Origin: Cloacibacterium rupense
Lineage (GTDB): Bacteria; Bacteroidota; Bacteroidia; Flavobacteriales; Weeksellaceae
DNA length: 64,000 nucleotides
Assembly: GCF_014645495.1 (NCBI RefSeq)
Contig: NZ_BMLV01000004.1
Coordinates: forward strand, 186,001 to 250,000
Direction of reading: 5' to 3'
The translations under genes were made by a program, and so were the position numbers. This document shows, one piece after another, positions 9,856-26,256 of this stretch (positions are counted from its first letter, which is position 1; every line of letters begins with the position of its first letter). The notes below the pieces were generated by a model. It saw only the letters and a program-made list of their open reading frames with translations, was not told the origin of the DNA and searched no databases.

Positions 9856-9995
9856 GATGAGTGGATGAGTGGTAGAGTGGAAGAGGTGAAGTTGTAAAGT
9901 TGTGAAGTTGTAAAGTTGTAAAGTTGTGAAGTTGTGAAGTTGTGAAGTTGTAAAGTTGTAAAGTTGTAAAGTTGTTAAGAGGTGAAGTTGTGAAG
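9856..9995. repeat. Octamer tandem repeat tract, cluster 1
   Basis: The tract splits into 17.5 consecutive octamers in perfect phase: gatgagtg twice, gtagagtg, gaagaggt, then a run of gaagttgt and aaagttgt units, one taagaggt, and gaagttgt again. The plus strand has no C at all across it. The first two bases and the fourth (A/G, A, G) are the steadiest. A period of 8 excludes coding constraint. Confidence 0.9.
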
Positions 9996-10094
9996 ATTTT
10001 ATTGTCCTAGGTCCTAAAGGAAGTAAAATCTTCCATTTTTTTCTTGAGTTATTTTTGAAATTTTTGAAATTTCTACAGGTAGGTTTATTAGATT

Positions 10095-10157
10095 TTTTTA
10101 ACGCAAAGATTCATTTTTGTGGATGGATATTTTAAGGAAGCAAAGGCATAAATGCTT
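10095..10157 (+). repeat. 63-bp direct repeat, copy 1
   Basis: The segment TTTTTAACGCAAAGATTCAT ... AAGGCATAAATGCTT recurs at 10222-10284 with a single A/G difference. The sequence between the copies (AGTGTTCTTAGTGAAACC, CTTAGTGCTCTTTGTGTTTAA) is of the kind scattered between genes in flavobacterial genomes, so this is probably a dispersed intergenic repeat. Confidence 0.85.
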
Positions 10158-10221
10158 GTGGAGGTTATTTCTAATCATAGTGTTCTTAGTGAAACCTTAG
10201 TGCTCTTTGTGTTTAAATAAA

Positions 10222-10284
10222 TTTTTAACGCAAAGATTCATTTTTGTGGATGGATATTTTAAGGGAGCAAAGGCATAAATGCTT
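10222..10284 (+). repeat. 63-bp direct repeat, copy 2
   Basis: Second copy of the 10095-10157 element in the same orientation, one substitution apart. It ends in TGCTTCGCGAAGG, whose core TTCGCGAA is palindromic, and it leads directly into the next octamer tract. Confidence 0.85.
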
Positions 10285-10299
10285 CGCGAAGGGTGTGGA

Positions 10300-10425
10300 G
10301 GTTAGGAGGTGAAGTTGAGGAGTGGTAGAGTGGTAGAGTGGTAGAGTGGTAGAGTGGAAGAGGTTAGGAGGTGAAGAGGTGAAGTTGTGAAGTTGAGGAG
10401 GTGAAAAAAAAGTTGAGGGTGGAGT
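10300..10425. repeat. Octamer tandem repeat tract, cluster 2
   Basis: C-free purine-rich sequence with units such as gtggtaga (four in a row), gaggtgaa and gttgtgaa, 8-bp phased for most of its length with some 1-2 base slips. Same family as clusters at 9856, 11408 and 12160. Confidence 0.8.
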
Positions 10426-10510
10426 TGTTTAATTTAGTAATTTTAAGGATTGAAAAATATAAAACCAATAATAACCTAAAAAAGTCTTCTTTTATGAAGG
10501 CACTACCGCT

Positions 10511-11407
10511 ATGAACAGAAATTTTATTCTCTTTTTATTCCTTGTTTTTAATTTGAGTTTTGGGCAGAATACGCCTGTTTTGATACCCGGAACCTCTTAC
10601 TCTATGGTTCCACCAGAGGGTTTTGTGGTGTCTGCTAATTTTTCGGGGTTCCAGAATAATGAAACAGGTTCTTCTATTATTGTGGCTGATTTTCCGGCTT
10701 CCTATGAAGAATTGGTAAAGGGTTTTACGAAGGAAGCTTTGAAAACAAAAGGAATGGAATTGATTTCTAAAGAAACTGTGTCTTACCAACAAAAAGAGGC
10801 CATGCTCTACAAGGTAAGTCAGATAGCTAATGGGATAACCTATCTCAAGCAGATATTATTGTTTGGAGACCTTAAGAATACGGTTATGGTCAATGGCATC
10901 TATCCCGAGTTGTTTAGTGCTCAAGAAAAAGCAATGCGCACGAGTTTGTTTTCCATAAAAATGAACGAAAAACAAATTGCCAACCCTCTAGAAGCTGCCC
11001 CTTACGCCATAGATGTCAGTGGTACAAGTTATGTTTTTGTGAAATCAATGGCTGGTTCTTTGCTGTATAGTGAAGATGGTCAACTGCCTAGTAAAAAAGG
11101 AATGCTTATCATAAGTAATTCTCTCGGCAACAAAGTCTATACTGATGAAAAGCAACAAGCTATAGAAAGATTAAAAAAACTACCCAATGCCAGTAAAGCC
11201 ATCATTCAAAAAGTTGAAAAGGTCAATATTTCGGATATGCAAGGGTACGAAATTGTGGCTCAAGGAGATAAGGGGCAATTGCTCTACGAGGTGATGCTTT
11301 TTAATTCTGAACGTGAATATTACCTGATTGTAGGAGAAGCCAACGAAAATAAAGTCAAAAACCTAGAAGTATTTCAGAAAGTAGCCAGAACTTTTCGGGT
11401 AAAATAA
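10511..11407 (+). CDS. Secreted protein of unknown function (298 aa)
   Basis: A signal peptide (MNRNFILFLFLVFNLSFGQ) is followed by a soluble domain that opens with IPGTSYSMVPPEGFVVS. This hydrophobic-strand, PxGF-turn pattern is also seen in the secreted protein at 25663 (FKMDLPRGFTKMD). A second part (residues about 150-298) contains SGTSYVFVKSMAGSLLYSED and ends in VFQKVARTFRVK. I do not recognise a named family; a periplasmic or surface role is inferred only from the signal. The gene is flanked on both sides by octamer repeat tracts and separated by another tract from a further secreted-protein gene at 11639. Confidence 0.75.
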   Translation: MNRNFILFLFLVFNLSFGQNTPVLIPGTSYSMVPPEGFVVSANFSGFQNNETGSSIIVADFPASYEELVKGFTKEALKTKGMELISKETVSYQQKEAMLYKVSQIANGITYLKQILLFGDLKNTVMVNGIYPELFSAQEKAMRTSLFSIKMNEKQIANPLEAAPYAIDVSGTSYVFVKSMAGSLLYSEDGQLPSKKGMLIISNSLGNKVYTDEKQQAIERLKKLPNASKAIIQKVEKVNISDMQGYEIVAQGDKGQLLYEVMLFNSEREYYLIVGEANENKVKNLEVFQKVARTFRVK

Positions 11408-11530
11408 ATGTAGGTTAGGAGGTTAAGAGGTGAAGTTGAGGAGTGGTAGAGTGAAGAGTGGTAGAGTTAAGAGTGGAAGAGGTGAAGTTGTGAAGTTGTA
11501 AAGTTGTGAAGTTGTGAAGTTGTGAAGAGG
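11408..11530. repeat. Octamer tandem repeat tract, cluster 3
   Basis: C-free tract directly after the stop codon, with units such as gtggtaga, gaggtgaa, gttgtgaa and gttgtaaa. It is followed by short near-repeats (catcagtcat, catcaattgtcaa, attattagtcat) up to the next gene. Confidence 0.8.
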
Positions 11531-11638
11531 TTAGAGAGTTAGTGTTATCTATAGTCTCATCTCTATCAATCATCAGTCATCAATTGTCAATTATTAGTCA
11601 TTTATATCGATAATCAAAAACCAATAAAATCATCAGTT

Positions 11639-12136
11639 ATGAAAAATGTAAAAACATTATTCTTTTTTCTTTTCTTTTTACCATTTGTTATTTTTGGACA
11701 AGAAACGGTTTACACGACATTGACCACCAATGCTGGAGAAGTGAAAATTCCTGGGGAATGGAAACAGCACAATACCATGGATGATTCTGGGCAAACTTAT
11801 CTAAGCAATCAAGAGCACGTCATTATTGCTATTGCCAGAAATCCACAAAAAGCCTACCCATTTTATAAAAGTACTTATTCTGATTTTGAAAATGTAAAGG
11901 CCTTTTACCAATGGGATCCAGACTACCGAAGAGAAAACCATTATAAAACCCAGCATTTAAAAGACAATACAGAATTGCAGTATGTCATTTGGAAATACCA
12001 TGATGGGAAACTGGATAATATTTTTTTATTTGGGGTTTCTAAGAAAGATTTCTTGAACTTAATGGTTTATACCGATAAGTGGAGTGAAGAGGAACAAATT
12101 AAGTTTCTGGAAAATTTATTTAAGCTGAATAAGTAG
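11639..12136 (+). CDS. Secreted protein of unknown function (165 aa)
   Basis: The signal peptide is MKNVKTLFFFLFFLPFVIFGQ. The mature 145 residues contain a strand-rich pattern (TTNAGEVKIPGEWKQ, YVIWKYHDGKLDNIFLF) and end in EEEQIKFLENLFKLNK. I recognise no domain. The layout (short strand, P-G-x-W turn, closing amphipathic helix) is broadly like the 298-aa neighbour, so the two may be distant relatives; this is inference. The ATG follows a 100-bp spacer of AT-rich near-repeats, and the next octamer tract starts shortly after the stop. Confidence 0.72.
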   Translation: MKNVKTLFFFLFFLPFVIFGQETVYTTLTTNAGEVKIPGEWKQHNTMDDSGQTYLSNQEHVIIAIARNPQKAYPFYKSTYSDFENVKAFYQWDPDYRRENHYKTQHLKDNTELQYVIWKYHDGKLDNIFLFGVSKKDFLNLMVYTDKWSEEEQIKFLENLFKLNK

Positions 12137-12159
12137 GTAGTTGGCGTTTGAACGGAGAA

Positions 12160-12315
12160 CTGGTAGAGTGGGTTGGTGAAGGGGTTAGGAGGTGAAGTTG
12201 TAAAGATGTAAAGATGTAAAGATGTGAAGATGTGAAGATGTGAAGTTGAGGAGTGGTAGAGTGAAGAATGGTAGAGTGGAAGAGTGTAAGAGTGTAAGAG
12301 TGGAAGATTGAAGAG
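12160..12315. repeat. Octamer tandem repeat tract, cluster 4
   Basis: Units gatgtaaa (three) and gatgtgaa (two), then gtggtaga, gtgaagaa, gtaagagt and related octamers, again without C on the plus strand apart from the edges. It belongs to the same family as the three clusters upstream. A minus-strand 87-codon open frame across it is an artefact of composition. Confidence 0.8.
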
Positions 12316-12397
12316 GTATATGCTTCGCAAAGGGTGGTTGGTATTTTTTATTTCATGGTATTTTCTTTTGGTGTTCTTTCAGTTTTGTTTTGGTTTT

Positions 12398-12425
12398 CTT
12401 CGGAAAAAGAGACGTTTTTCCGAAG
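12398..12425. repeat. Perfect 11-bp inverted repeat
   Basis: CTTCGGAAAAA (12398-12408) and TTTTTCCGAAG (12415-12425) are exact reverse complements around a 6-base loop GAGACG. It lies 262 bp past the stop of the 165-aa gene and touches the 11-bp tandem repeats. It could act as a terminator on either strand, but no clean T run follows. Confidence 0.75.
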
Positions 12426-12460
12426 GACTCCCGAAGAAGTCTCGAAGGAGACTCGAAGGA
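12421..12460. repeat. 11-bp tandem repeats (CGAAG-anchored)
   Basis: Three consecutive 11-mers (cgaaggactcc, cgaagaagtct, cgaaggagact) and a partial fourth (cgaagga). The first overlaps the right arm of the inverted repeat, so the hairpin arm may have seeded the repeat. Confidence 0.8.
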
Positions 12461-12480
12461 TTGTAGGAGAGGGGTGGTCA

Positions 12481-12560
12481 AATCTGGACATTACTGGACA
12501 TTAGTGGACAAATAAGGACAATAGTGGACAAAACTGGACATTAGCGGACAAAGGTGGACA
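12481..12560. repeat. Eight 10-bp repeats, NNNNNGGACA, helically phased
   Basis: Eight consecutive decamers all end in GGACA with variable first halves: aatct, ttact, ttagt, aataa, atagt, aaact, ttagc, aaggt. The phase never slips. The last GGACA ends 14 bp before the -33 box of a strong predicted promoter at 12575-12605, so all copies face one side of the helix just upstream of it. Confidence 0.9.
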
Positions 12561-12574
12561 TTTTTATTTTCTGT

Positions 12575-12633: not shown

Positions 12634-12837
12634 ATGAAAAAATACATCATACTTACCCCAGAGGGACAAACCCTAGCGCCTAATGCAGAAGTGGAGGTAG
12701 AGAATTTGCAAGTGCTGGGCGTGGTAGAGGGCGTAAGAGACGAGAATGAAGCCATTATCAAACTGTTGCAAGAAAATAGTTGGATTATCGATGCGGAATA
12801 TAATGTGGCAGAATTTATTGTCTATGAATTACTTTAG
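12634..12837 (+). CDS. Small protein of unknown function (67 aa)
   Basis: The product starts MKKYIILTPEGQTLAPNAEV and contains a predicted beta-alpha-beta arrangement (VENLQVLGVVEGV, DENEAIIKLLQENSWI, EYNVAEFIVYELL). No family is recognised. An in-frame ATG 18 bp earlier (12616) would lie almost at the predicted transcription start, so I prefer 12634. Its 3' end overlaps that of the convergent methyltransferase gene by 9 bp, which ties the two into one inherited cassette. A role linked to the methyltransferase or to mobile DNA is possible but unproven. Confidence 0.65.
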   Translation: MKKYIILTPEGQTLAPNAEVEVENLQVLGVVEGVRDENEAIIKLLQENSWIIDAEYNVAEFIVYELL

Positions 12838-13308
12838 TCTGATGAATTTTCCTTCGATATGGGCTTGTTCTAGCAGGTCTGCATTTTCTTTGCCATAGGC
12901 TATCAAAATACTGGGAGCACCGGGAGTACCTTTTTGTTCGCCATCTGTGTTATAGAATTTTATTCTGCCTTTTACAAATAATACCGCGTGGGCATCGTTC
13001 CAGATGTGATTAAAGAAGCATTTGGTTTCTGTTCTAGCGAAGATTAGGGCAATGCCGTTGCCATGTATTTTCAGTTTTTCCATCCATTTTTCCATTCCTT
13101 TGCCATAGGGCGGATTCATGTAAACTCTGCCGAACCATTGTTTTTGCAGTCCATCATCATTGATATTGAAGTTGGTTTTAGCATGTACGAAAGGCGGATT
13201 GACGGGAGTGCAAGGATCTAAATCAAAATCGCCTAATTTTTTGACTAAATCAGGGGGTGTCAACCATTCTATGGTGGTGTTTATTGATTTTTCGAAGCTT
13301 ACATTCAT
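12829..13308 (-). CDS. Phage-type DNA N6-adenine methyltransferase (Dam family)
   Basis: This 159-aa protein matches the compact Dam-like methyltransferases of phages and mobile elements. It has the entry motif EWLTPPDLVKKLGDFDLDPC (residues 14-33), the catalytic NPPYGKGMEKW motif (about 65-75), the FARTETKCFF helix and a KGRIKFYN strand. Such enzymes methylate adenine using S-adenosylmethionine. The target site cannot be read off, although several relatives modify GATC. No restriction endonuclease is adjacent, so it is an orphan. It lies upstream of and divergent from cas9, with the tracrRNA between them, and overlaps the 67-aa gene end to end. Confidence 0.88.
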   Translation of the reverse strand: MNVSFEKSINTTIEWLTPPDLVKKLGDFDLDPCTPVNPPFVHAKTNFNINDDGLQKQWFGRVYMNPPYGKGMEKWMEKLKIHGNGIALIFARTETKCFFNHIWNDAHAVLFVKGRIKFYNTDGEQKGTPGAPSILIAYGKENADLLEQAHIEGKFIRLK

Positions 13309-13737
13309 TGATTTTTTTTGGCAAATATGTGATCAATTTTTCAATTATGCAAGTGTAAATAGATCTAAATCAATAAGTTGCGTGAAATAAGTATCATTTT
13401 TATTGGATTGGAATTTTGTAAGTTTTTCTATGGCAGGAGGTTAGGGGATAAAATAAAAAATAAAAAAAGTCTTATTGTATAATTTATTAAAATAAAGTTA
13501 TAAAAAAAATATAATAAAAATCGGGGAACCCGTATTTTCATGTGAAGTATTTTTTTTAAATTTATAAATTATTAAAAACTGATAATTATGAATAGACTAT
13601 GACTAGAATTCTAGTTCTTACTAATGAAAATAAAAATCCCACGGAAGTACGCAGGATTAAGTTTTTCTACGGCTTAAAAGCCTTGTTAGAAAAAGTATCT
13701 CAGAATTTATTAAAACAAATTTATAAAAATATTTAAT
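13309..13737. other. Intergenic region between the methyltransferase and cas9
   Basis: 429 bp, very AT-rich. It contains the tracrRNA (13627-13710, minus strand) with its promoter, a perfect 14-bp palindrome ACTAGAATTCTAGT (13602-13615) just beyond the tracrRNA terminator, and a small CGGG-GAA-CCCG hairpin near 13523. I found no exact TAnnTTTG element on the plus strand for cas9, so its promoter is unassigned. Confidence 0.6.
13627..13710 (-). ncRNA. tracrRNA of the type II-C system
   Basis: Read on the minus strand, the antirepeat has two blocks. TAATAAATTCTG (13712-13701) pairs perfectly with 12 bases of the array repeat and CTTTTTCTAAC (13695-13685) with 11 more; they are separated by a 5-base bulge (AGATA) opposite CTTT. 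This is the normal crRNA:tracrRNA duplex. Next comes AA plus a nexus-like hairpin GGCTT-TT-AAGCC (13682-13671). A terminator hairpin follows, ATCCTGCG-TACTTC-CGTGGGAT (13657-13636, two G-U pairs), then TTTTATTTT. Only the minus strand gives antirepeat, nexus and terminator in the right order. The predicted 5' end is near 13710, from the promoter at 13716-13745. Expected length is about 80-85 nt. Confidence 0.85.
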
Positions 13738-13745
13738 ATGAGCAA
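13716..13745 (-). promoter_or_regulatory. tracrRNA promoter
   Basis: On the minus strand TTG (13745-13743), 19 bases, then TAAATTTG (13723-13716) fits the flavobacterial consensus exactly. The -33 box lies inside the first codons of cas9, so tracrRNA and cas9 transcription start regions overlap in opposite directions. Confidence 0.72.
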
Positions 13746-16700
13746 TAAAAAATTTGGAATTGATTTAGGAACAAATTCATATGGTTGGGCAATTAGAAAT
13801 TTTGATTTGGAAGAAAATCAGATAGAAAAAGCTGGAGTAATCAGATTTGGTAGTGGTGTAGGAATTGATAAATCTGGAAGTGTTTTTACTTTTGCTTCAG
13901 TAAGAACAAAGGGAAGAGGAGTAAGAAATAGATATAAATCTGAAAAAAATAGAAAATTTGAGTTATTAAAATATCTTATTAAGTATAAATACGTGCCATT
14001 AACAGAAAATGAATTAAAATCTTGGAAAAATTATGTACATCCTAATTTAAGAACTAACGAAATTATTTCACGTAAATTTCCAAAAGAAAATATTAAATTT
14101 CTAAATTGGTTACAAAATGATTTTTCTTATTTAGATTTTGATGAGAAATTAAATATATACGAGATCAGAGCAAAATTAGTAAATGAAAAAATTGAAGATG
14201 AAATTTTAAGAAAGCATCTTCTTGGGAGAGTTTTATATCATATTGCTAATCATAGAGGATTCAAAAGTAGTAAAAAAGTAAAAGAAAATATAGAAGATGA
14301 TAATGCGGAAGATGATATTTCTTTAAATAGAAAAAATCCTATTGGTGCAGAAAGAAAAAAAGCTAGTAAAATTGAAGAAATAGCTTTAAAATATAATGTA
14401 AAAACCATAGGGGAAGCTTTTGCTAAAGAAATTTCTTTCGGAAATAGAGTAAGACAAGAGTTACAACAATATGCAATCAGAATAAAACAAGAGGAGGAGG
14501 TAAAACTTATTTTTGAAAAGCAAGGTTATGTATTGGAAAGTGAGGAATTTAAAAATCTATTCAAATCTGTTTTTTTTCAAAAAAAACTTAAGTCACAAAA
14601 AGGAAATGTTGGAAACTGTACATTAGAGAAAAACAAAACAAGATGTTATTTAAGTCATTATGATTTTGAGGAATTTTCTGTTAGAGAGTTTTTAAATAAT
14701 GTTCGAATTAATAGAAAGCCTTTGACTAAAAATATAAAAGATATTTTGTGGAATGATTTTTTCTTAAAAAGAGTAAAAAGTAATTTTAAGTTTTCTGAAA
14801 TTAAAGAGTTTCTCTATGTAAATTTTTATTGTAAAGAAACTGATTATTTTAATTATAGAGATAAACAAACTATTGGAGGATGTCCTATATCAAGTTACTT
14901 TTTTAAGATCTTTGGTGAGAATTGGCGTGATTTAAGAATTGAGACTAATCTTCAAAAAGCAAATGCAAAAAGAAAAGATAAAAGAATCATTTACAATATT
15001 GAAGATGTATGGCATTTACTTTTAGATGAAGAGGATGACGAAAATCTAAAAACAATTTTTCTGAATAAATATAATTTTTCTGAAAAACAGATAATTGATT
15101 TATTAAAATGTAGCAGAAAGTTTGAACAGGGTTTTGCTTCTTTATCTCTTAATGCAATTAGAAAAATTCTAGTTTTCTTAAGAGAAGATTTTGACAATGT
15201 GAGTGCAAAACTTTTAGCAAATGTACCAATAGTTATAGGAAAAGAGCAATATGAATCAAATAGAAAAAAAATAATAGAGTTTTTAATAAATATACAAGAT
15301 GAAGTGAACTTTGAGAAGTTAACATCTAATATCGTTAATGAACTTATTTATGAATGGAAAAATGAAGAACAAAAGAGAGGTTATAGAGACGTAGAATATA
15401 AACTTTCAAATAATGTTGAAGGAAAAGATATTTTGAACAAACTACAAATACGTTTTGGAAAAGATACCTGGACTGATTATTCTGAAGAAATAAAAAAGAA
15501 ATACTATAATACATGTTTTAATAAATTTCAATTTTTTTTCAAAACAAGTAAGCGTGAGTTTATAAAATTACCAACTTTAAAAGATACGTTTAAGGGGTAT
15601 TTGAAAAATAATTTTTTGAGTCATTTTTCAGAAGATACAATTAACAAAAAATTAGAAAGAATATACCATCCATCAGAGACAATTATATATCAAAAACCTG
15701 AAAACTCTGATGTTATTCTTCAATTAGGAAGTCCAAAACATCCTGCATTGAAGCAGCCAAAGGCACTTAAATCTTTACATATTTTAAAAAATCATCTCAA
15801 TCAACTTTTGAAAGAAGAGATTATTGATAGTGATACAGAAATTATTATTGAGATTGCAAGAGAATTAAATGATATTAATAGAGCGTGGGCAATTGAACAA
15901 TATCAGAAGAAGCAAGAACAAGAAAGGGAAGAAATAAAAGTATTATTAGAAGAATATTTTCTTTCAAATGGATTAAATGTAAATCCTCAAAGTGAGGATG
16001 ATAATGATAAAATGAGATTGGCAATTGAGCAAATCGAAATGGAAGAAAAAGATTATGATTATTCTATAAAAGAAAACTCAAAAACGAAAGAAAAAAAGTG
16101 GGATTATTTCATAAAACAAGAGAAATCAAAAATAGAAAAGTATGTTGATAAAATAAAACTATGGAAAGAACAAAATTTCAGGTGTATTTATACAAACAAA
16201 AGTATTTCTTTTAAAGATTTGTTTAATGATAGAATTGTTGATTTTGAGCATACAATTCCCTATGAAATTTCACAAGATAATTCTTTACGAAATAAAACCC
16301 TTTGTTATTCACATTACAATACTAATATAAAAAAAGCAAAAATTCCAACAGAACTGATTGATGATTATGAAACTATAAGAAATAATATAGAACATTGGGT
16401 TCAAAAAGTTAAATTTATTGAAGATAGAATAGAATTTTGGAAGTTAGAATCTAAAAAAGCTGTAGGAGATAAAGAGAGAAAAGATTCAGCAATTAGAGAA
16501 AGACATTTATGGAGTTTAGAATTGAATTATTGGAAAGGAAAAGTAGAAGGGTTTTTAGTAAAAGAAATAACAGAAAAGTGGTTGAATTCTCAATTAGTTG
16601 ATACTCAAATAATGACAAAATATGCCTATCATTTTTTGAAAACAATATTTAATAAAGTAAGAGTTGTAAAAGGAAATGATACAAAAGAATTTAGAAAAAT

Positions 16701-18126
16701 ATTACAAGTACAACCAAAAGAAGAGCTAGAAAAAAACAGAACACACCACTCCCATCATGCAATAGATGCTGCTGTTTTAACACTAATACCCCCAAGTCCA
16801 GAAAAAGAAAGAATAAAAGTTATAGCAGAAGAATTTCGTAAAAAATACAAAAAACAATATCATGATTATGTGCCTTATCGAAATTATAGTTCGGAACATG
16901 TTTTAAAAATTAAAGACGAAATAATAATTAATTATAAAGAAAAAGATAAGATTTTTTCATCTTTTGTGAAAAATTTAAAAAAGAATGGGAAAAGAATTCC
17001 TTTAGAAATATATAACAAACAAACTAATAAAAAAGAGATTGTTTATCAAAAAAATGAAAAAGGTGAAATTGAATTTAGAAAATATGAGGATGGCAACTTT
17101 ATAATTAAGAAAGATCAATTTGGCAATCCGATAAAAGATCAGTTTGGCGGAAAAATTCCTATTCCTGAATATAAAAAAATGAAAGGGGATGGTTTTAGAG
17201 GTTCTATTTTTCAAGACTCTTTTTATAGTGAATTAAGTTATTTTGAAAGAGATGAGAATGGTAATTTTAAATTTGATAAGGAAGGTAATCATATTTTGAA
17301 AAAAAATGTGATAGCAAAACGAATTCCTATAGATGATGCCAAGAAAAAAATAGATGCAATAATTGATTTTCAAGTAAAAGAAAATGTAAAAAAAGAAATA
17401 GAACGTATAAAAGAAGAAGAAAATTTATTGAAAGATAATAAACTTGAATTAGTTGATAAAAAAATATACCAATTAAACAGAAAAGGAGAAAGGGTAAAAG
17501 ATCAGTTTGGGAAATTTATTACTTATAGACATGTGAGATGTGCAATTCCAAATACTAAAGTAGTTCCAATAAAAAATCATTTATATGGAGATAATAGACA
17601 TTATCTTGCGCAACATGAAGAGGTGAGTTTAGCAGCAATCTATGAAATTAAAACAAAAAATAAAATAAAGAGAGAATTAAAGACACTAAATCCTATACAC
17701 ATTGCAGAATTGAAAAATAATCTGAACATACTTGACAAAAAAGATTTTTTTGAATATTTAATTGATGAAAAAACAGGTGAAATTATTTATCCAAAATATG
17801 TTTTCTCTAAAAAAACTAAGGTACTATTCTATGGTAATGAAACTATAGAAGATTTGAAAAGAATTTATAATGAAGGAAATATTGAAGATATTCAAAAAAG
17901 ATTTTTTATGATTTCAGGTATTGAAGAAAATAAAGCAGGAAAAAAAATTATTTTCCAGAATTGTTTTATGGCAGGAGATGCTTTAAAAAGTCTACCAAAA
18001 AATTTATCAGAATTAAATCTAAATGAGAATGTAGAAACTTATAAACTTTCACAAGGGAATTGGAATTTTATTATGGAGGGTTATGATTTTAAAATTAATG
18101 CATTAGGTGAAATAGAATTCAAATAA
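13738..18126 (+). CDS. cas9: CRISPR-associated endonuclease Cas9, type II-C, large form
   Basis: This 1462-aa RNA-guided nuclease cuts DNA matching the crRNA. Catalytic residues are all present: RuvC-I Asp9 (FGIDLGTNSYGWAI), RuvC-II Glu705 (EIIIEIAREL), HNH His838 (DFEHTIPYE) with Asn861 (SHYNTNIKK), and RuvC-III His1007/Asp1010 (HHSHHAIDAAVL). An Arg-rich bridge helix lies near residues 55-78 (RTKGRGVRNRYKSEKNRKF). The C-terminal PAM-interacting part is long and holds RHVRC (1264-1268) and three KDQFG motifs (1125, 1133, 1254). Bacteroidetes II-C Cas9 proteins often reach about 1400-1500 aa, longer than Neisseria or Campylobacter forms. cas1 follows 8 bp downstream. There is no csn2 or cas4, which supports II-C. 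Confidence 0.98.
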   Translation: MSNKKFGIDLGTNSYGWAIRNFDLEENQIEKAGVIRFGSGVGIDKSGSVFTFASVRTKGRGVRNRYKSEKNRKFELLKYLIKYKYVPLTENELKSWKNYVHPNLRTNEIISRKFPKENIKFLNWLQNDFSYLDFDEKLNIYEIRAKLVNEKIEDEILRKHLLGRVLYHIANHRGFKSSKKVKENIEDDNAEDDISLNRKNPIGAERKKASKIEEIALKYNVKTIGEAFAKEISFGNRVRQELQQYAIRIKQEEEVKLIFEKQGYVLESEEFKNLFKSVFFQKKLKSQKGNVGNCTLEKNKTRCYLSHYDFEEFSVREFLNNVRINRKPLTKNIKDILWNDFFLKRVKSNFKFSEIKEFLYVNFYCKETDYFNYRDKQTIGGCPISSYFFKIFGENWRDLRIETNLQKANAKRKDKRIIYNIEDVWHLLLDEEDDENLKTIFLNKYNFSEKQIIDLLKCSRKFEQGFASLSLNAIRKILVFLREDFDNVSAKLLANVPIVIGKEQYESNRKKIIEFLINIQDEVNFEKLTSNIVNELIYEWKNEEQKRGYRDVEYKLSNNVEGKDILNKLQIRFGKDTWTDYSEEIKKKYYNTCFNKFQFFFKTSKREFIKLPTLKDTFKGYLKNNFLSHFSEDTINKKLERIYHPSETIIYQKPENSDVILQLGSPKHPALKQPKALKSLHILKNHLNQLLKEEIIDSDTEIIIEIARELNDINRAWAIEQYQKKQEQEREEIKVLLEEYFLSNGLNVNPQSEDDNDKMRLAIEQIEMEEKDYDYSIKENSKTKEKKWDYFIKQEKSKIEKYVDKIKLWKEQNFRCIYTNKSISFKDLFNDRIVDFEHTIPYEISQDNSLRNKTLCYSHYNTNIKKAKIPTELIDDYETIRNNIEHWVQKVKFIEDRIEFWKLESKKAVGDKERKDSAIRERHLWSLELNYWKGKVEGFLVKEITEKWLNSQLVDTQIMTKYAYHFLKTIFNKVRVVKGNDTKEFRKILQVQPKEELEKNRTHHSHHAIDAAVLTLIPPSPEKERIKVIAEEFRKKYKKQYHDYVPYRNYSSEHVLKIKDEIIINYKEKDKIFSSFVKNLKKNGKRIPLEIYNKQTNKKEIVYQKNEKGEIEFRKYEDGNFIIKKDQFGNPIKDQFGGKIPIPEYKKMKGDGFRGSIFQDSFYSELSYFERDENGNFKFDKEGNHILKKNVIAKRIPIDDAKKKIDAIIDFQVKENVKKEIERIKEEENLLKDNKLELVDKKIYQLNRKGERVKDQFGKFITYRHVRCAIPNTKVVPIKNHLYGDNRHYLAQHEEVSLAAIYEIKTKNKIKRELKTLNPIHIAELKNNLNILDKKDFFEYLIDEKTGEIIYPKYVFSKKTKVLFYGNETIEDLKRIYNEGNIEDIQKRFFMISGIEENKAGKKIIFQNCFMAGDALKSLPKNLSELNLNENVETYKLSQGNWNFIMEGYDFKINALGEIEFK

Positions 18127-18134
18127 AACGCAAT

Positions 18135-19363
<1,229 letters not shown>

Positions 19364-19387
19364 ATTTTGAATCCTAAAAATGAAAAT

Positions 19388-19410
19388 AATCCACTGTAAT
19401 TCAGTGGATT
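19388..19410. terminator. Bidirectional terminator between cas2 and the array
   Basis: AATCCACTG (19388-19396) and CAGTGGATT (19402-19410) form a perfect 9-bp stem with a 5-base loop. The plus strand continues AAATTTTGAG. The minus strand continues ATTTTCATTTTT, a better T-rich tail, suited to ending crRNA transcription coming from the array. Confidence 0.75.
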
Positions 19411-19420
19411 AAATTTTGAG

Positions 19421-22400
19421 GTTGTGCTTTATCACAAAGCTAATAAATTCTGAAAGCTTTTTCTAACTATAGGAGATCCTAGAAAGATGCAACACCCGTT
19501 GTGCTTTATCACAAAGCTAATAAATTCTGAAAGCTTTTTCTAACCTTAAAAAAGATCAAGAGCCACTGTTCTCTGTTGTGCTTTATCACAAAGCTAATAA
19601 ATTCTGAAAGCTTTTTCTAACTAAATCTAGTTCCTAAGTGCCACATTCTAGGTTGTGCTTTATCACAAAGCTAATAAATTCTGAAAGCTTTTTCTAACTT
19701 AAGAGAAGAATTATATCAAAACCTAGATGTTGTGCTTTATCACAAAGCTAATAAATTCTGAAAGCTTTTTCTAACAGTTCCCAGATTTGTTTGCAGAAAA
19801 GTTTGGTTGTGCTTTATCACAAAGCTAATAAATTCTGAAAGCTTTTTCTAACTACTACATTACCTATTACGAGTTTTTATATGTTGTGCTTTATCACAAA
19901 GCTAATAAATTCTGAAAGCTTTTTCTAACCATTAATGCGAGTTGCTCTTCCCTAGTTAAGTTGTGCTTTATCACAAAGCTAATAAATTCTGAAAGCTTTT
20001 TCTAACGCAAAAGATGCGCAAAAAGCACAAGAAGATGTTGTGCTTTATCACAAAGCTAATAAATTCTGAAAGCTTTTTCTAACTTTAACATTAAAGTGGT
20101 TTTTTTGGTGGTTGTTGTGCTTTATCACAAAGCTAATAAATTCTGAAAGCTTTTTCTAACTTCACAACGAACGTCGTGAAATGCTTCTTGGTTGTGCTTT
20201 ATCACAAAGCTAATAAATTCTGAAAGCTTTTTCTAACTTTCTTCTGTGAGTGGGATTTTTTCAAAATGTTGTGCTTTATCACAAAGCTAATAAATTCTGA
20301 AAGCTTTTTCTAACCATATATCTAACTTCGGAATTCAAGAATTCGTTGTGCTTTATCACAAAGCTAATAAATTCTGAAAGCTTTTTCTAACCATAAAAAA
20401 GAAGTAAATGAAGAAACAACAGTTGTGCTTTATCACAAAGCTAATAAATTCTGAAAGCTTTTTCTAACTAATTAAGAATAACAATGTAGAACGGAAAAGT
20501 TGTGCTTTATCACAAAGCTAATAAATTCTGAAAGCTTTTTCTAACTAGCGGTCAAGTTTGATGTTTTTACGGTAAGTTGTGCTTTATCACAAAGCTAATA
20601 AATTCTGAAAGCTTTTTCTAACCATAATCATTGTATTTATAACCTAATTGTTGTTGTGCTTTATCACAAAGCTAATAAATTCTGAAAGCTTTTTCTAACA
20701 AACTTTCTTTTTTCATCAAAAAAGAAATTGTTGTGCTTTATCACAAAGCTAATAAATTCTGAAAGCTTTTTCTAACCACCGCCGACTGCGTATATATCTT
20801 TTGATAGTTGTGCTTTATCACAAAGCTAATAAATTCTGAAAGCTTTTTCTAACTTCAATCAACGTACTATTACATTTTGCACTGTTGTGCTTTATCACAA
20901 AGCTAATAAATTCTGAAAGCTTTTTCTAACTACCAGAACCGTCTATGTAATTTCTACGCAGTTGTGCTTTATCACAAAGCTAATAAATTCTGAAAGCTTT
21001 TTCTAACTACCAAGTATTTCTTTCAGTATCAGATTTTGTTGTGCTTTATCACAAAGCTAATAAATTCTGAAAGCTTTTTCTAACTTTTAAAGGCTTGGGT
21101 TAAATTAGGAGTTAGTTGTGCTTTATCACAAAGCTAATAAATTCTGAAAGCTTTTTCTAACAGTCTTACTGAACCCGATCATTCATTAACTGTTGTGCTT
21201 TATCACAAAGCTAATAAATTCTGAAAGCTTTTTCTAACATTATAAATTCTGGCCTTCAAGATTGGGTTGTTGTGCTTTATCACAAAGCTAATAAATTCTG
21301 AAAGCTTTTTCTAACATTTCTAGAAATACCTAGTATTTGTGAAAAGTTGTGCTTTATCACAAAGCTAATAAATTCTGAAAGCTTTTTCTAACGTCAGCAT
21401 TATCAATTATTTTTTGCGCTTCGTTGTGCTTTATCACAAAGCTAATAAATTCTGAAAGCTTTTTCTAACCTGAATTGAATTATAAAGTAGAATTGCTTTG
21501 TTGTGCTTTATCACAAAGCTAATAAATTCTGAAAGCTTTTTCTAACTATCTTTAACATCTTTATTTGTTAGAGATTGTTGTGCTTTATCACAAAGCTAAT
21601 AAATTCTGAAAGCTTTTTCTAACTTGGTTGCTGCTCATCCTAATTTACCAATTGTTGTGCTTTATCACAAAGCTAATAAATTCTGAAAGCTTTTTCTAAC
21701 TATTGGTAGATGATGACCGATATGTAGAACGTTGTGCTTTATCACAAAGCTAATAAATTCTGAAAGCTTTTTCTAACTATGAAGGACTTGATCTTACAAT
21801 TTTAGACGTTGTGCTTTATCACAAAGCTAATAAATTCTGAAAGCTTTTTCTAACTCGAAAGTGGTTATCAATCTGCAGAATTCTGTTGTGCTTTATCACA
21901 AAGCTAATAAATTCTGAAAGCTTTTTCTAACCAGCGGCTATTTTGCCATATTGGACCACTTGTTGTGCTTTATCACAAAGCTAATAAATTCTGAAAGCTT
22001 TTTCTAACTGTCACGTTTGACAAAATTTCAAATTGCATGTTGTGCTTTATCACAAAGCTAATAAATTCTGAAAGCTTTTTCTAACCTTTGAAGTTTTCAT
22101 CAGACTTAGCGCTCCGTTGTGCTTTATCACAAAGCTAATAAATTCTGAAAGCTTTTTCTAACAATAAAGAAGTAGATGCTACACCTACATCTGTTGTGCT
22201 TTATCACAAAGCTAATAAATTCTGAAAGCTTTTTCTAACTCTAATTGCTTTTGGTCAGTATTATAAGAAGTTGTGCTTTATCACAAAGCTAATAAATTCT
22301 GAAAGCTTTTTCTAACTATGAAAATCACCAAAGAATTTAAAGACAAGTTGTGCTTTATCACAAAGCTAATAAATTCTGAAAGCTTTTTCTAACTATTTTG

Positions 22401-24999
22401 GTCTCAATTCCTTTGGGGGGTTTGTTGTGCTTTATCACAAAGCTAATAAATTCTGAAAGCTTTTTCTAACTGGAAGAGAGAGAAAAAATTGCACTTAACA
22501 GTTGTGCTTTATCACAAAGCTAATAAATTCTGAAAGCTTTTTCTAACGATGATAGCACGTCTACTAATGAAAATGATGTTGTGCTTTATCACAAAGCTAA
22601 TAAATTCTGAAAGCTTTTTCTAACCGTGAAGTTCTGAAGAATCTGTGGCGGTAAGTTGTGCTTTATCACAAAGCTAATAAATTCTGAAAGCTTTTTCTAA
22701 CTGAAGTGTTATAGCAAAAAGAATCTGCGTTGTTGTGCTTTATCACAAAGCTAATAAATTCTGAAAGCTTTTTCTAACCTTCTATACTATCAAATCTTGC
22801 TTCTATTCGTTGTGCTTTATCACAAAGCTAATAAATTCTGAAAGCTTTTTCTAACCAAATTTTAGATAAATACCAAGAGCTTTGCGTTGTGCTTTATCAC
22901 AAAGCTAATAAATTCTGAAAGCTTTTTCTAACTTACCCAAGAAGTAGATAAGGCTTTCGTAGGTTGTGCTTTATCACAAAGCTAATAAATTCTGAAAGCT
23001 TTTTCTAACAATTCATGTTGAGCTCTATAGAAAGAACCGGTTGTGCTTTATCACAAAGCTAATAAATTCTGAAAGCTTTTTCTAACAATAAAGATTTTGG
23101 AGTTGATGGAGAAATAGTTGTGCTTTATCACAAAGCTAATAAATTCTGAAAGCTTTTTCTAACTAACATTATCATTTACATTCTCATTAACAGTTGTGCT
23201 TTATCACAAAGCTAATAAATTCTGAAAGCTTTTTCTAACTAGAAGCAGAAAAGCAAATGGAGCTACAAAGTTGTGCTTTATCACAAAGCTAATAAATTCT
23301 GAAAGCTTTTTCTAACATTGAGAGAATTAAGCAAGAAGCTCTGATTGTTGTGCTTTATCACAAAGCTAATAAATTCTGAAAGCTTTTTCTAACATTTAAT
23401 TTTATATATTTCTCGAATTCAAAGTTGTGCTTTATCACAAAGCTAATAAATTCTGAAAGCTTTTTCTAACCTTACTGAGGCTCAATCTACAGAGAATAAA
23501 GTTGTGCTTTATCACAAAGCTAATAAATTCTGAAAGCTTTTTCTAACTATGAGAAAGTAGGTGCTGAGATTGGTAAGTTGTGCTTTATCACAAAGCTAAT
23601 AAATTCTGAAAGCTTTTTCTAACTGCAACGGAATTGAAAAAGTGATATTTGTCGTTGTGCTTTATCACAAAGCTAATAAATTCTGAAAGCTTTTTCTAAC
23701 ATTTCCCTTGACTTTTCGTAATTTTTGTAAGTTGTGCTTTATCACAAAGCTAATAAATTCTGAAAGCTTTTTCTAACCTGCAGGTTATGAAGGTGAGATA
23801 GATAGTTGTTGTGCTTTATCACAAAGCTAATAAATTCTGAAAGCTTTTTCTAACCTTGAAGCTTTTGAATTTCTGGTTCTATTAGTTGTGCTTTATCACA
23901 AAGCTAATAAATTCTGAAAGCTTTTTCTAACTTTAAAAGGTTTTAAACGTTTTTTTTAAATGTTGTGCTTTATCACAAAGCTAATAAATTCTGAAAGCTT
24001 TTTCTAACTTCACGCGTTGTATTTCTCTCATGTATTCTGTTGTGCTTTATCACAAAGCTAATAAATTCTGAAAGCTTTTTCTAACTCGTTGATGTTTTGT
24101 TTTAGAAATTCTGCAGTTGTGCTTTATCACAAAGCTAATAAATTCTGAAAGCTTTTTCTAACTAGCTGCTGTAAGTGATGTTCAAAAGCAAAGTTGTGCT
24201 TTATCACAAAGCTAATAAATTCTGAAAGCTTTTTCTAACCTTTGGGAATTGCTGGAATTGGTAATTTATGTTGTGCTTTATCACAAAGCTAATAAATTCT
24301 GAAAGCTTTTTCTAACGTGTAGATTTGCAGGGAATTTACCCGAAATGTTGTGCTTTATCACAAAGCTAATAAATTCTGAAAGCTTTTTCTAACTTAGATT
24401 AAGAACAGATATTTTTATTGAAAGTTGTGCTTTATCACAAAGCTAATAAATTCTGAAAGCTTTTTCTAACTAGCCAAACTTCAACGATTGAAATGTCCGT
24501 GTTGTGCTTTATCACAAAGCTAATAAATTCTGAAAGCTTTTTCTAACCGAAATTAACATCGCCATCCAAATGACCGAGTTGTGCTTTATCACAAAGCTAA
24601 TAAATTCTGAAAGCTTTTTCTAACTTACGTTTTATTTTAGATGGTTATCCAGACGTTGTGCTTTATCACAAAGCTAATAAATTCTGAAAGCTTTTTCTAA
24701 CTAGAGCAGATTAAAATGATTTTTTTCATAGGTTGTGCTTTATCACAAAGCTAATAAATTCTGAAAGCTTTTTCTAACAAAGGTATTTGTGGTCCATTTT
24801 AAAATAATGTTGTGCTTTATCACAAAGCTAATAAATTCTGAAAGCTTTTTCTAACCAGAAATTCTAATTCCACCAGCATAATATGGTTGTGCTTTATCAC
24901 AAAGCTAATAAATTCTGAAAGCTTTTTCTAACAAGAAGCTACAATCACCTTTATTATATTTGGTTGTGCTTTATCACAAAGCTAATAAATTCTGAAAGC
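19421..24999 (-). CRISPR. Type II-C CRISPR array: 73 repeats (last truncated), 72 spacers
   Basis: Repeats are 47 bp and begin GTTGTGCTTTATCACAAAGC and end CTGAAAGCTTTTTCTAAC; the 72 full copies appear identical. I located each repeat start: spacing is 77 bp (30-bp spacers) except for spacers 49 and 54, which are 29 bp. The last repeat (24963-24999) keeps only its first 37 bp and then fuses to a 95-bp tandem repeat block. I assign the minus strand as transcribed because the tracrRNA antirepeat is complementary to the minus-strand repeat with correct downstream hairpins. Also, each repeat contains TAGCTTTG on that strand (repeat positions 22 to 15), an exact -7 box placed so that transcription would start 6-10 nt before the spacer. 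No two spacers look alike. Spacer 38 resembles the start of a coding sequence (ATGAAAATCACC). Confidence 0.99.
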
Positions 25000-25590
25000 A
25001 ATTGACTCACTACGTTCGTCGAAGCTTCGCTTTCACAACAAATAAGTCAGAGAAAGAATCGATAAGTTTTAGATATTAAATGAATTATGAGAACAATTGA
25101 CTCACTACGTTCGTCGAAGCTTTGCTTTCACAACAAAGAAGTCAGAGAAAGAATCAATAAGTTTTAGATATTAAATGAATTCTGAAAGCAATTTACTTAC
25201 AACGTTCGTCGAAGCTTCGCTTTCACAACAAAGAAGTCAGAGAAAGAATCGATAAGTTTTAGATATTAAATGCATTATGAAAGAAATTTGCTTACAACGT
25301 TCGTCGAAGCTTCGCTTTCACAACAAATAAGTCAGAGAAAGAATCAATAAGTTTTAGATATTAAATGAATTATGAGAACAATTGACTCACTGCGTTCGTC
25401 GAAGCTTCGCTTTCACAACAAAGAAGTCAGAGAAAGAATCAATAAGTTTTAGATATTAAATGATTTCTAAGAGCAATTGAAACATTATGTTCTTCGAAGC
25501 TTCGTTTTCACCAGATTATATTTTTAAAACATTGATAAGCATTAGATAGGGAATGATTTCAATAGTACTTTAGATAAAATAGGGCATGTA
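25000..25590. repeat. 95-bp tandem repeats abutting the CRISPR array
   Basis: Units begin at 24989 (overlapping the truncated CRISPR repeat), 25084, 25179, 25274 and 25369, each exactly 95 bp. A diverged copy starts at 25464 and the start of a seventh at 25557. Each unit contains a variable head (ATTCTGAAAGC or ATTATGAGAAC), the core ACGTTCGTCGAAGCTTCGCT with the palindrome CGAAGCTTCG, then TTTCACAAC and the tail AATAAGTTTTAGATATTAAATG. The head shares AATTCTGAAAGC with the CRISPR repeat, the point where array and block are joined. No gene runs through the block. Confidence 0.93.
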
Positions 25591-25662
25591 GACTTTACTT
25601 TTTATATGATTTGTTTGAAAAATCTTGTTTTCATTGATCAACTAAAATGGTATATTTACGGT

Positions 25663-26256
25663 ATGAAATACAGATTAAGATTGTTGATTTTATGTTTTGC
25701 TTTTTTAAGCATTTATAAAATTTATGCACAAAATAGCACTAATCCCATCCATATCGTAGATAAGGAGTTGGGTTTTAAAATGGATTTGCCGAGAGGTTTT
25801 ACGAAAATGGACAGTAAGGAAGTGGGTGCTGCATTGCAGATGGGTAAGAAGCAGATTGATAAAATATATGATACCGATTTTAATATCAATGGTTTAGAGC
25901 CTAATTTGTTTAAAAAAGATGATAATAATTATTTTATCATCAATATTAAGGATTTCCCTGACTCTGAGGAAGCCTATCAAAAAGAAGTAGCCAAATATAA
26001 TAGGTTGATGTATACTACTTATCAAAAATCTTTTCCCAATGTTGAGCTTACTGAGTCTACAGAAACTAAAAAAATAGGGAATGAGGTCTTTACGAAATAT
26101 TCTTTGAAGGCTGTAGTATCAAAGGCTTTGACTATGAAAGTTTTTAATTTTAATTCTTTGTATAAAGGCAAAGATGTTACTTTGGCTGCGGTGTACGTGG
26201 ATGATGAGGTAGGGCAAGAAATTCTAAAAGCTGTAGAAAGTGCCAGTTTTAAATAA
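25663..26256 (+). CDS. Secreted protein of unknown function (197 aa)
   Basis: I place the start at 25663, giving the signal peptide MKYRLRLLILCFAFLSIYKIYAQ. The earlier in-frame ATG at 25606 would add 19 residues before it. The mature part begins HIVDKELGFKMDLPRGFTKM and ends EVGQEILKAVESASFK, a strand-turn-strand opening followed by a mixed domain with a closing helix. This resembles the organisation of the 10511 gene (IPGTSYSMVPPEGF), suggesting a shared fold; no named family is recognised. It is a single-gene unit with its own terminator at 26285-26315, right after the CRISPR-associated tandem repeats. Confidence 0.72.
   Translation: MKYRLRLLILCFAFLSIYKIYAQNSTNPIHIVDKELGFKMDLPRGFTKMDSKEVGAALQMGKKQIDKIYDTDFNINGLEPNLFKKDDNNYFIINIKDFPDSEEAYQKEVAKYNRLMYTTYQKSFPNVELTESTETKKIGNEVFTKYSLKAVVSKALTMKVFNFNSLYKGKDVTLAAVYVDDEVGQEILKAVESASFK

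Follow-up and report, generated by a model that had tools for sequence, protein, structure and literature searches.

A tandem block at the old end of the type II-C CRISPR array of Cloacibacterium rupense, probably derived from an insert-split extra repeat

Introduction

In a type II-C CRISPR array, the repeat that is transcribed first lacks a spacer, and an extraneous crRNA would arise from it. According to the available part of Feussner et al. 2025 (PMC12080349), three counter-measures are found in II-C systems: mutation of the repeat, an upstream terminator, and a hairpin that involves the guide. In that part of the work, the mutation analysis dropped the repeats that differed in length by at least two nucleotides, so that repeats split by an insert would fall outside it.

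The accessible text on Flavobacterium columnare reports that its II-C array is transcribed towards the leader, on the basis of only eight reads (PMC8092290). The oldest end of II-C arrays is easily missed in array prediction, as stated in the available sections of PMC4869251. Here we describe this end of the array of Cloacibacterium rupense, in a stretch of 64,000 nucleotides of contig NZ_BMLV01000004.1 (referred to as the window), where tandem units of 95 bp adjoin the last repeat.

Results

Anatomy and polarity of the locus

The window (contig C4 of genome G000) contains a type II-C locus made of a tracrRNA antirepeat, cas9, cas1, cas2, a 57-bp leader and an array. The assignment is based on protein models, open reading frames and the antirepeat: cas9, cas1, cas2 and the antirepeat are present, and the array is reached without any further cas gene. 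The features are the following (positions in the window).

13600..13716, minus strand: predicted tracrRNA, from the sequence; its antirepeat (13685-13713) forms a duplex of -29.3 kcal/mol with the current repeat (GTTAGAAAAAG..CAGAATTTATTA)
13738..18126, plus strand: cas9, 1462 aa (TIGR01865, 288.7 bits)
18135..19028, plus strand: cas1, type II (TIGR03639, 288.8 bits)
19019..19363, plus strand: cas2 (TIGR01573, 57.3 bits)
19364..19420, no strand: leader, expected spacer-uptake end; resembles the leaders of relatives, and its hairpin 19387-19411 resembles a minus-strand array terminator
19421..24962, minus strand: body of the array, 72 identical 47-bp repeats and 72 spacers (array analysis)
24963..24999, minus strand: last (oldest) repeat, the extra repeat; agrees with the current repeat over 37 of 47 bp, minus-strand TAGCTTTG among them
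24988..25082, no strand: 95-bp unit 1, whose head is the end of the last repeat (unit alignment, as for all units)
25000..25039, no strand: putative ancestral repeat end, AATT (25000-25003) and CACAAC (25034-25039) with a 30-bp insert between them (25004-25033), from the repeat ends of the family and the sequence
25000..25049, minus strand: predicted hairpin covering what would be the guide of the extraneous crRNA, -16.1 kcal/mol
25083..25177, no strand: 95-bp unit 2
25178..25272, no strand: 95-bp unit 3, whose head AATTCTGAAAGCAATTTAC is the best match to the putative ancestral repeat type
25273..25367, no strand: 95-bp unit 4
25368..25462, no strand: 95-bp unit 5
25463..25557, no strand: decayed unit 6, 43 of 95 mismatches

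This cas9 is of a rare kind, found at E<=1e-150 in 3 of 320 family genomes (G000, G300 and G316; the last two are 40% identical to that of the window), and cas1 is up to 94% identical to that of the loci common in the family; it is therefore likely that either cas9 or the cas1–cas2 module has been swapped. No confirmed relative of cas9 came out of a search of genome contigs, nor of cas1 out of a search of viral contigs, and nothing in Rfam matched within 13300-25800. At 9889-12562, upstream of the CRISPR locus, there is a cluster of several short tandem repeats (8-bp AAGTTGTA, GAGTGGTA and AAGATGTA, and 10-bp ones of the TGGACA type), and the stretch 12829-13308 gives a weak match, below the cut-off (23 bits against 97), to a model of phage N-6-adenine methyltransferase.

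The strand of the antirepeat upstream of cas9 and the terminator-like hairpin of the leader, on the minus strand, support the idea that the crRNA would be transcribed from the minus strand, from the block towards cas2. The minus strand of the repeat also holds TAGCTTTG, which fits TAnnTTTG, the -7 consensus of flavobacteria. Together with the published behavior of the II-C systems of relatives, these signs of polarity indicate that position 24999 should be the oldest end of the array for spacer uptake, and the first to be transcribed into crRNA.

The antirepeat strand and the leader hairpin thus support the original prediction that the block is upstream of the array in the direction of crRNA transcription. 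Its suggestion that the block is a converted leader does not agree with the anatomy: the leader-like sequence common to relatives (the congener G004 and family members) is the 57 bp after cas2 (19364-19420), and the uptake site of a CRISPR leader is expected beside cas2 in these loci, at the opposite end of the array from the block. Nor does the block fit a boundary that stops the growth of the array, since growth is expected at the other end.

The junction and the 95-bp units

The array (19421-24999) has 72 repeats of 47 bp without any mismatch and 72 spacers without duplicates, followed by a last repeat that matches for 37 bp. Eight of its 47 positions differ from the current repeat, all of them among the ten positions of the handle end that pair with the tracrRNA. 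In the block, TRF detects a period of 95 with 5.6 copies (score 832), a copy number that comes from one assembly and could be wrong there. Units 1 to 5 have 3, 3, 5, 7 and 3 mismatches to the unit consensus and differ from each other by 2 to 10 bases; the degenerate extras that were thought to follow these five exact-length units amount to one decayed sixth unit (43 of 95 mismatches).

The stop of the last repeat after 37 of 47 bp, next to the units, is real, and the 37-bp match is in register with the block: unit 1 has the AATTCTGAAAGC of the last repeat as its head. Past the junction, exact AATTCTGAAAGC recurs only in unit 3, starting at 25178 rather than 25179. Two motifs had been attributed to every unit. 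The first, CGAAGCTTCG, is present in five of the six (unit 2 has CGAAGCTTTG), and the second, CTTTCACAAC, in units 1 to 5 but not in unit 6.

The last repeat does not seem to have been simply cut. The junction keeps AAGCAATT, which is followed by a 30-bp insert and then by CACAAC, so that GAAAGC-AATT, 30 bases and CACAAC read as the usual repeat end of the family with an insert.

Repeat ends and trailers in the family

A cas1 match at E<=1e-90 was found in 151 family genomes, from which 80 loci were taken, non-randomly, those with long contigs and a cas1 of high identity being preferred. Once the window is added, 71 of the 81 loci have an array of at least three regular repeats; the ten others are L056 (which has a run of N), L065, L066, L074, L104, L111, L116, L120, L123 and L129. 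The repeats of these 71 arrays end in AAGCAATTCACAAC (68) or GAGCAATTCACAAC (2), that is in A or G followed by AGCAATTCACAAC in 70 cases; the end AAGCTTTTTCTAAC occurs in the window only.

The trailer-side end of the last repeat, in the 69 arrays that are not too close to a contig end (two were omitted), is lost in 40 (more than 4 mismatches out of 14), partial in 8 and intact in 21, which shows that such a loss is normal there. Tandem blocks other than ordinary spacer arrays (TRF, periods of at least 40) are present in only 4 of the 69 trailers, those of the window, L052, L054 and L057; the TRF blocks of L078, L081 and L119 are CRISPR repeats with spacers and were counted as ordinary. A trailer common to the window and the congener G004 (TAGATATTAAAT) was considered and rejected, its likeness to the block being reached by 244 and 76 of 1000 shuffles in a trailer that has a 2-base N gap; no ancestral state was thus found within the genus. 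In another locus (L175, G059:C38), the array is inverted relative to cas1–cas2 and its decayed end is beside cas2.

Similarity of the units to CRISPR repeats

When the junction fragment is removed, the block still matches CRISPR repeats, which suggests that its junction with the array is more than chance. The score is 19 with the repeat of G316 (0 of 1000 shuffles of the repeat and 0 of 300 shuffles of the block), a repeat that was chosen post hoc, after the match was seen, from one of the two genomes with the nearest cas9. It is 15 with the repeat of the window itself (3 to 5 of 1000 shuffles), and 12 to 15.25 with the repeats of two other genomes (3 to 46 of 1000 shuffles). The G316 repeat ranks first against the block among all 71 repeats (42 distinct); when this selection is corrected for, 1 of 200 shuffled blocks gave a score of 19 with its best repeat among the 42. 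The mean score of the block over the 71 repeats is 14.1 in the forward direction and 10.3 for the reverse complement.

Because the block matches the repeat of G316, and this repeat ranks first of 71, the units probably come from an older type of CRISPR repeat; the support for this descent is good, in our opinion, without being overwhelming. It is the new repeat type (GTTAGAAAAAG) that the antirepeat of the present tracrRNA fits. As for the second repeat system that was supposed to have recombined with the array by microhomology, a recombination at the shared stretch is likely, but a separate system is disfavored, since what the two have in common is consistent with homology to the ancestral CRISPR repeat.

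Within the genome the units occur at one locus only, and none of the 320 family genomes (one genome per species) matches them convincingly. Their dispersal as an ordinary intergenic repeat, which would have spoken against the original prediction, is therefore not what is seen. Short matches in G068, G132 and G310 (E 2.9e-4 to 9.2e-4), a match in G005 located inside an open reading stretch and a short match in a Steroidobacteraceae MAG were all regarded as chance. Phages gave no match for the array and the block, and plasmids none for the block.

Insert-split repeats in relatives

Three genomes of another genus (g20; loci L052, L054 and L057) have 113-bp blocks of insert-split repeats at the same array end. 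Their unit is the CRISPR repeat split by an insert (TTTTTGAAA, then TCCGC..GAGTC, then AAAGCAATTCACA), without spacers, and similar insert-split repeats with copies of the leader are also found at the leader side. A 41-base core pattern (at most 3 mismatches) has 4, 6 and 7 copies in the three genomes, always at the locus, and 0 copies in four other genomes tested. The first 35 bp of the junction repeat have 2, 1 and 0 changes relative to the repeat of the species itself, and the repeat halves of the next units are decayed. Compared to these multi-unit blocks, G135 has a single chimeric unit, with the same flanking gene and flank, which suggests that the copy number changes at a fixed place. 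This, and a junction repeat that follows the repeat of the species, is as recombination between repeats predicts.

A model (R1) built from ten insert-split repeats was searched over the 320 genomes, and 51 matches are listed at E<=0.01, in 26 genomes. Of these, 35 are strong (E<=1e-5); they come from 12 genomes belonging to 6 genera, and by their coordinates each of them is at most about 10 kb downstream of a cas1 hit. Sequences from six of the 12 genomes had been used to train the model, and the remaining six, with 8 matches, contributed none. In the loci that were read (at least one per genome), the insert has one site and one orientation, within a repeat at the array boundary or next to a copy of the leader. 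Three of the 16 weaker matches were inspected (L178, L179 and L180), and the remaining 13 may be chance or located elsewhere; L179 is the last repeat of an array and L180 a lone insert-split repeat. The predicted structure of R1 has an AATCC/GGATT stem, without covariation.

Searched with the model, the window gives nothing at E<=1 and G000 nothing at E<=0.01, so that we count the insert of the window as an analogue of that of the relatives, rather than as a proven member. Two derivations were tried and set aside. An inverted copy of the relatives' insert in the window was reached by 3 of 1000 shuffles with cheap gaps, but by 120 of 1000 with standard gaps, among 24 comparisons, and is unproven. 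A tracrRNA origin of the g20 insert gave scores of 11-13, on both strands and scattered over five cas9 upstream regions, which as raw scores were judged to be background.

The insert is also present inside repeats of L055, L084 and L139; wherever such repeats were read, they were confined to the boundaries of arrays or adjoined a copy of the leader. In L065 (G292) and L173 (G272), cas1–cas2 is followed by two leader copies with one insert-split repeat each, and a regular array is absent. The second insert-split repeat of L065 is followed by a stretch as long as a spacer and then by a decayed repeat; the contig of G272 ends at this point. In L178 (G324:C43:30518-30720), two insert-split repeats flank a 30-base, spacer-length stretch, which is what one would see if an insert-split repeat had been copied during spacer uptake; G324 is absent from the listed genomes with a cas1 match.

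Pairing and folding of the extra repeat

The extra repeat has two marks of the decayed extra repeats of PMC12080349, changes in the first 15 nt of the handle and a weaker predicted duplex with the tracrRNA than that of the consensus. The predicted duplex is -29.3 kcal/mol for the current repeat and -16.6 kcal/mol for the extra repeat, the loss being at the handle end. Random 10-mers at the handle give -19.2 kcal/mol on average (sd 2.1), so that the weaker duplex shows a loss and is not proof of selection.

The hairpin predicted in the 50 nt upstream (-16.1 kcal/mol) is reached by 1 of 300 shuffles, and that of 60 nt by 7 of 300; at other lengths the counts are 205 (40 nt), 37 (80 nt) and 77 (100 nt) of 300. 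Its energy in units 2-6 is -13.8, -8.6, -10.1, -13.5 and -3.1 kcal/mol, hence strongest beside the array. Since the hairpin does not stand out at 40, 80 or 100 nt, and is weaker in the other copies, selection is not demonstrated. A scan of the block for terminator-like sites gave none. The junction repeat retains an intact promoter-like TAGCTTTG, and TAnnTTTG is present on the minus strand of 0 of 6 unit stretches.

In relatives, insert-split repeats are also predicted to pair more weakly (from -27.5 to -18.4 kcal/mol in L052, -29.2 to -21.1 in L057 and -24.9 to -20.2 in L084), but their lower stem still pairs, which makes silencing by the insert uncertain. Silencing of the extraneous crRNA by the worn array end of the window is a plausible consequence of these predictions.

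Discussion

We argue that the block is probably an ancestral extra repeat that was amplified in tandem and fused again to the array by recombination, and that little or no extraneous crRNA would result. The anatomy of the locus, the elements of polarity, the descent from a CRISPR repeat, the restriction to the locus and the analogues in relatives are the parts that sequence supports; we infer the order of the events, the recombination and the RNA outcome.

In this scenario, an old terminal repeat of the ancestral type (ending in GAAAGCAATT..CACAAC) would have gained the 30-bp insert. Slippage or unequal crossing-over would then have multiplied the insert-split repeat and its degenerate flank into tandem 95-bp units. 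At a later stage, the last ten bases of the array repeat would have become TTTTTCTAAC, which matches the present tracrRNA antirepeat, and all younger repeats would have copied the TTTTTCTAAC form. Recombination of a current repeat with unit 1, within GAAAGC and the preceding bases, would have produced the chimeric last repeat, with the current sequence on the array side and that of the unit beyond. The extra repeat would keep the promoter-like half, able to start the oldest crRNA, without the half that pairs with the tracrRNA and with a predicted hairpin at the false guide; because of the last two features, little or no extraneous crRNA is expected.

One may add to this explanation, rather than oppose to it, that selection has kept the block as an insulator, the disrupted first repeat and the hairpin stopping the extraneous crRNA and the copy number being maintained for that. 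Two of the three strategies described for II-C systems in the available part of PMC12080349 do occur together here, the hairpin is strongest in the copy that adjoins the array, and inserts are found in boundary repeats of several genera. We nevertheless consider such selection rather unlikely, since the extra copies contribute nothing to the junction, the loss of pairing is about that expected from random bases, and ends are often decayed in arrays that have no tandem block (decay in 40 of 69, blocks in 4 of 69).

It is also unlikely, in our opinion, that an unrelated intergenic minisatellite was joined to the array by a 12-base microhomology. In favor of it, most of the unit outside GAAAGC..CACAAC has no clear similarity to CRISPR, the repeat of the window itself is matched with a modest score of 15, and the best match remains at 1 of 200 after allowing for the choice among 42 repeats. 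Against it, the match between the block and the repeat of a relative extends past the shared 12-mer (AGAT..AAT.AATTCTGAAAGCAATT.AC), AATT and CACAAC are in the ancestral order around the insert, there is no real copy of the unit elsewhere in the genome or the 320 family genomes, and other genomes share the architecture with units that are clearly derived from CRISPR.

A converted leader or promoter block that drives the transcription of the array from outside is very improbable. The consensus of sigma-70-type promoters does not fit this phylum. The block is directly upstream of the array in the crRNA direction, and 24900-25700 contains 8 sigma-70-type sites for 3.3 expected; but five of the eight are one site repeated on the plus strand, directed away from the array, the sole minus-strand site is in unit 6, TAnnTTTG is in the repeats and in none of the six minus-strand unit stretches, and the leader-like sequence is at cas2. 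An artefact of assembly in the copy number or the junction is just as hard to sustain, for, although 95-bp tandem repeats beside a 5.6-kb array are difficult for short reads and the assembly consists of 13 contigs, there are 2 to 10 differences between any two of units 1-5, which share an exact register with the repeat, and analogous junctions exist in other genomes, one of them (G117) in a single contig.

The amplified and re-fused extra repeat thus remains our preferred explanation, and the block seems to preserve an older repeat type, as a record of the change of the repeat to fit the present tracrRNA. More tentatively, and with more doubt than confidence, it may be that II-C arrays of the family share a recurrent boundary module, an extra repeat split by an insert at the junction of the crRNA:tracrRNA stem and sometimes amplified in tandem, of which the block of the window would be an independent or far-diverged case. 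If this is true, the module would be a fourth route, beside the three that are published, to silence the extraneous crRNA. Tandem insert-split end repeats suggest that the end of the array evolves as a structure and has undergone recombination of its own; they are also natural variants with which to test whether II-C systems must silence the extraneous crRNA.

Among the literature matches listed, judged by title and start of abstract and with subscription journals mostly outside the coverage, none describes tandem or insert-split end repeats. Among the closest known systems is the II-C locus of Riemerella, whose available description (PMC6008519) gives the same cas9-cas1-cas2-leader-array order, 47-bp repeats and 30-bp spacers. 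Uptake at the leader is common to Riemerella and Flavobacterium (PMC6008519, PMC8092290, from the parts available), and transcription towards the leader, with few reads, to F. columnare (PMC8092290); unlike the window, these loci have no such block mentioned in those parts. The available sections on CRISPRDetect (PMC4869251) likewise describe a leader-distal end that gathers mutations, insertions and deletions, and do not mention the tandem amplification of a decayed repeat. The extra repeat of II-C systems, as presented in the accessible part of PMC12080349, is alike in being the oldest and first-transcribed repeat, with handle changes in the first 15 nt, weaker pairing with the tracrRNA and a hairpin at the false guide; unlike it, the decayed repeat of the window carries an insert and would have been amplified into a tandem block.
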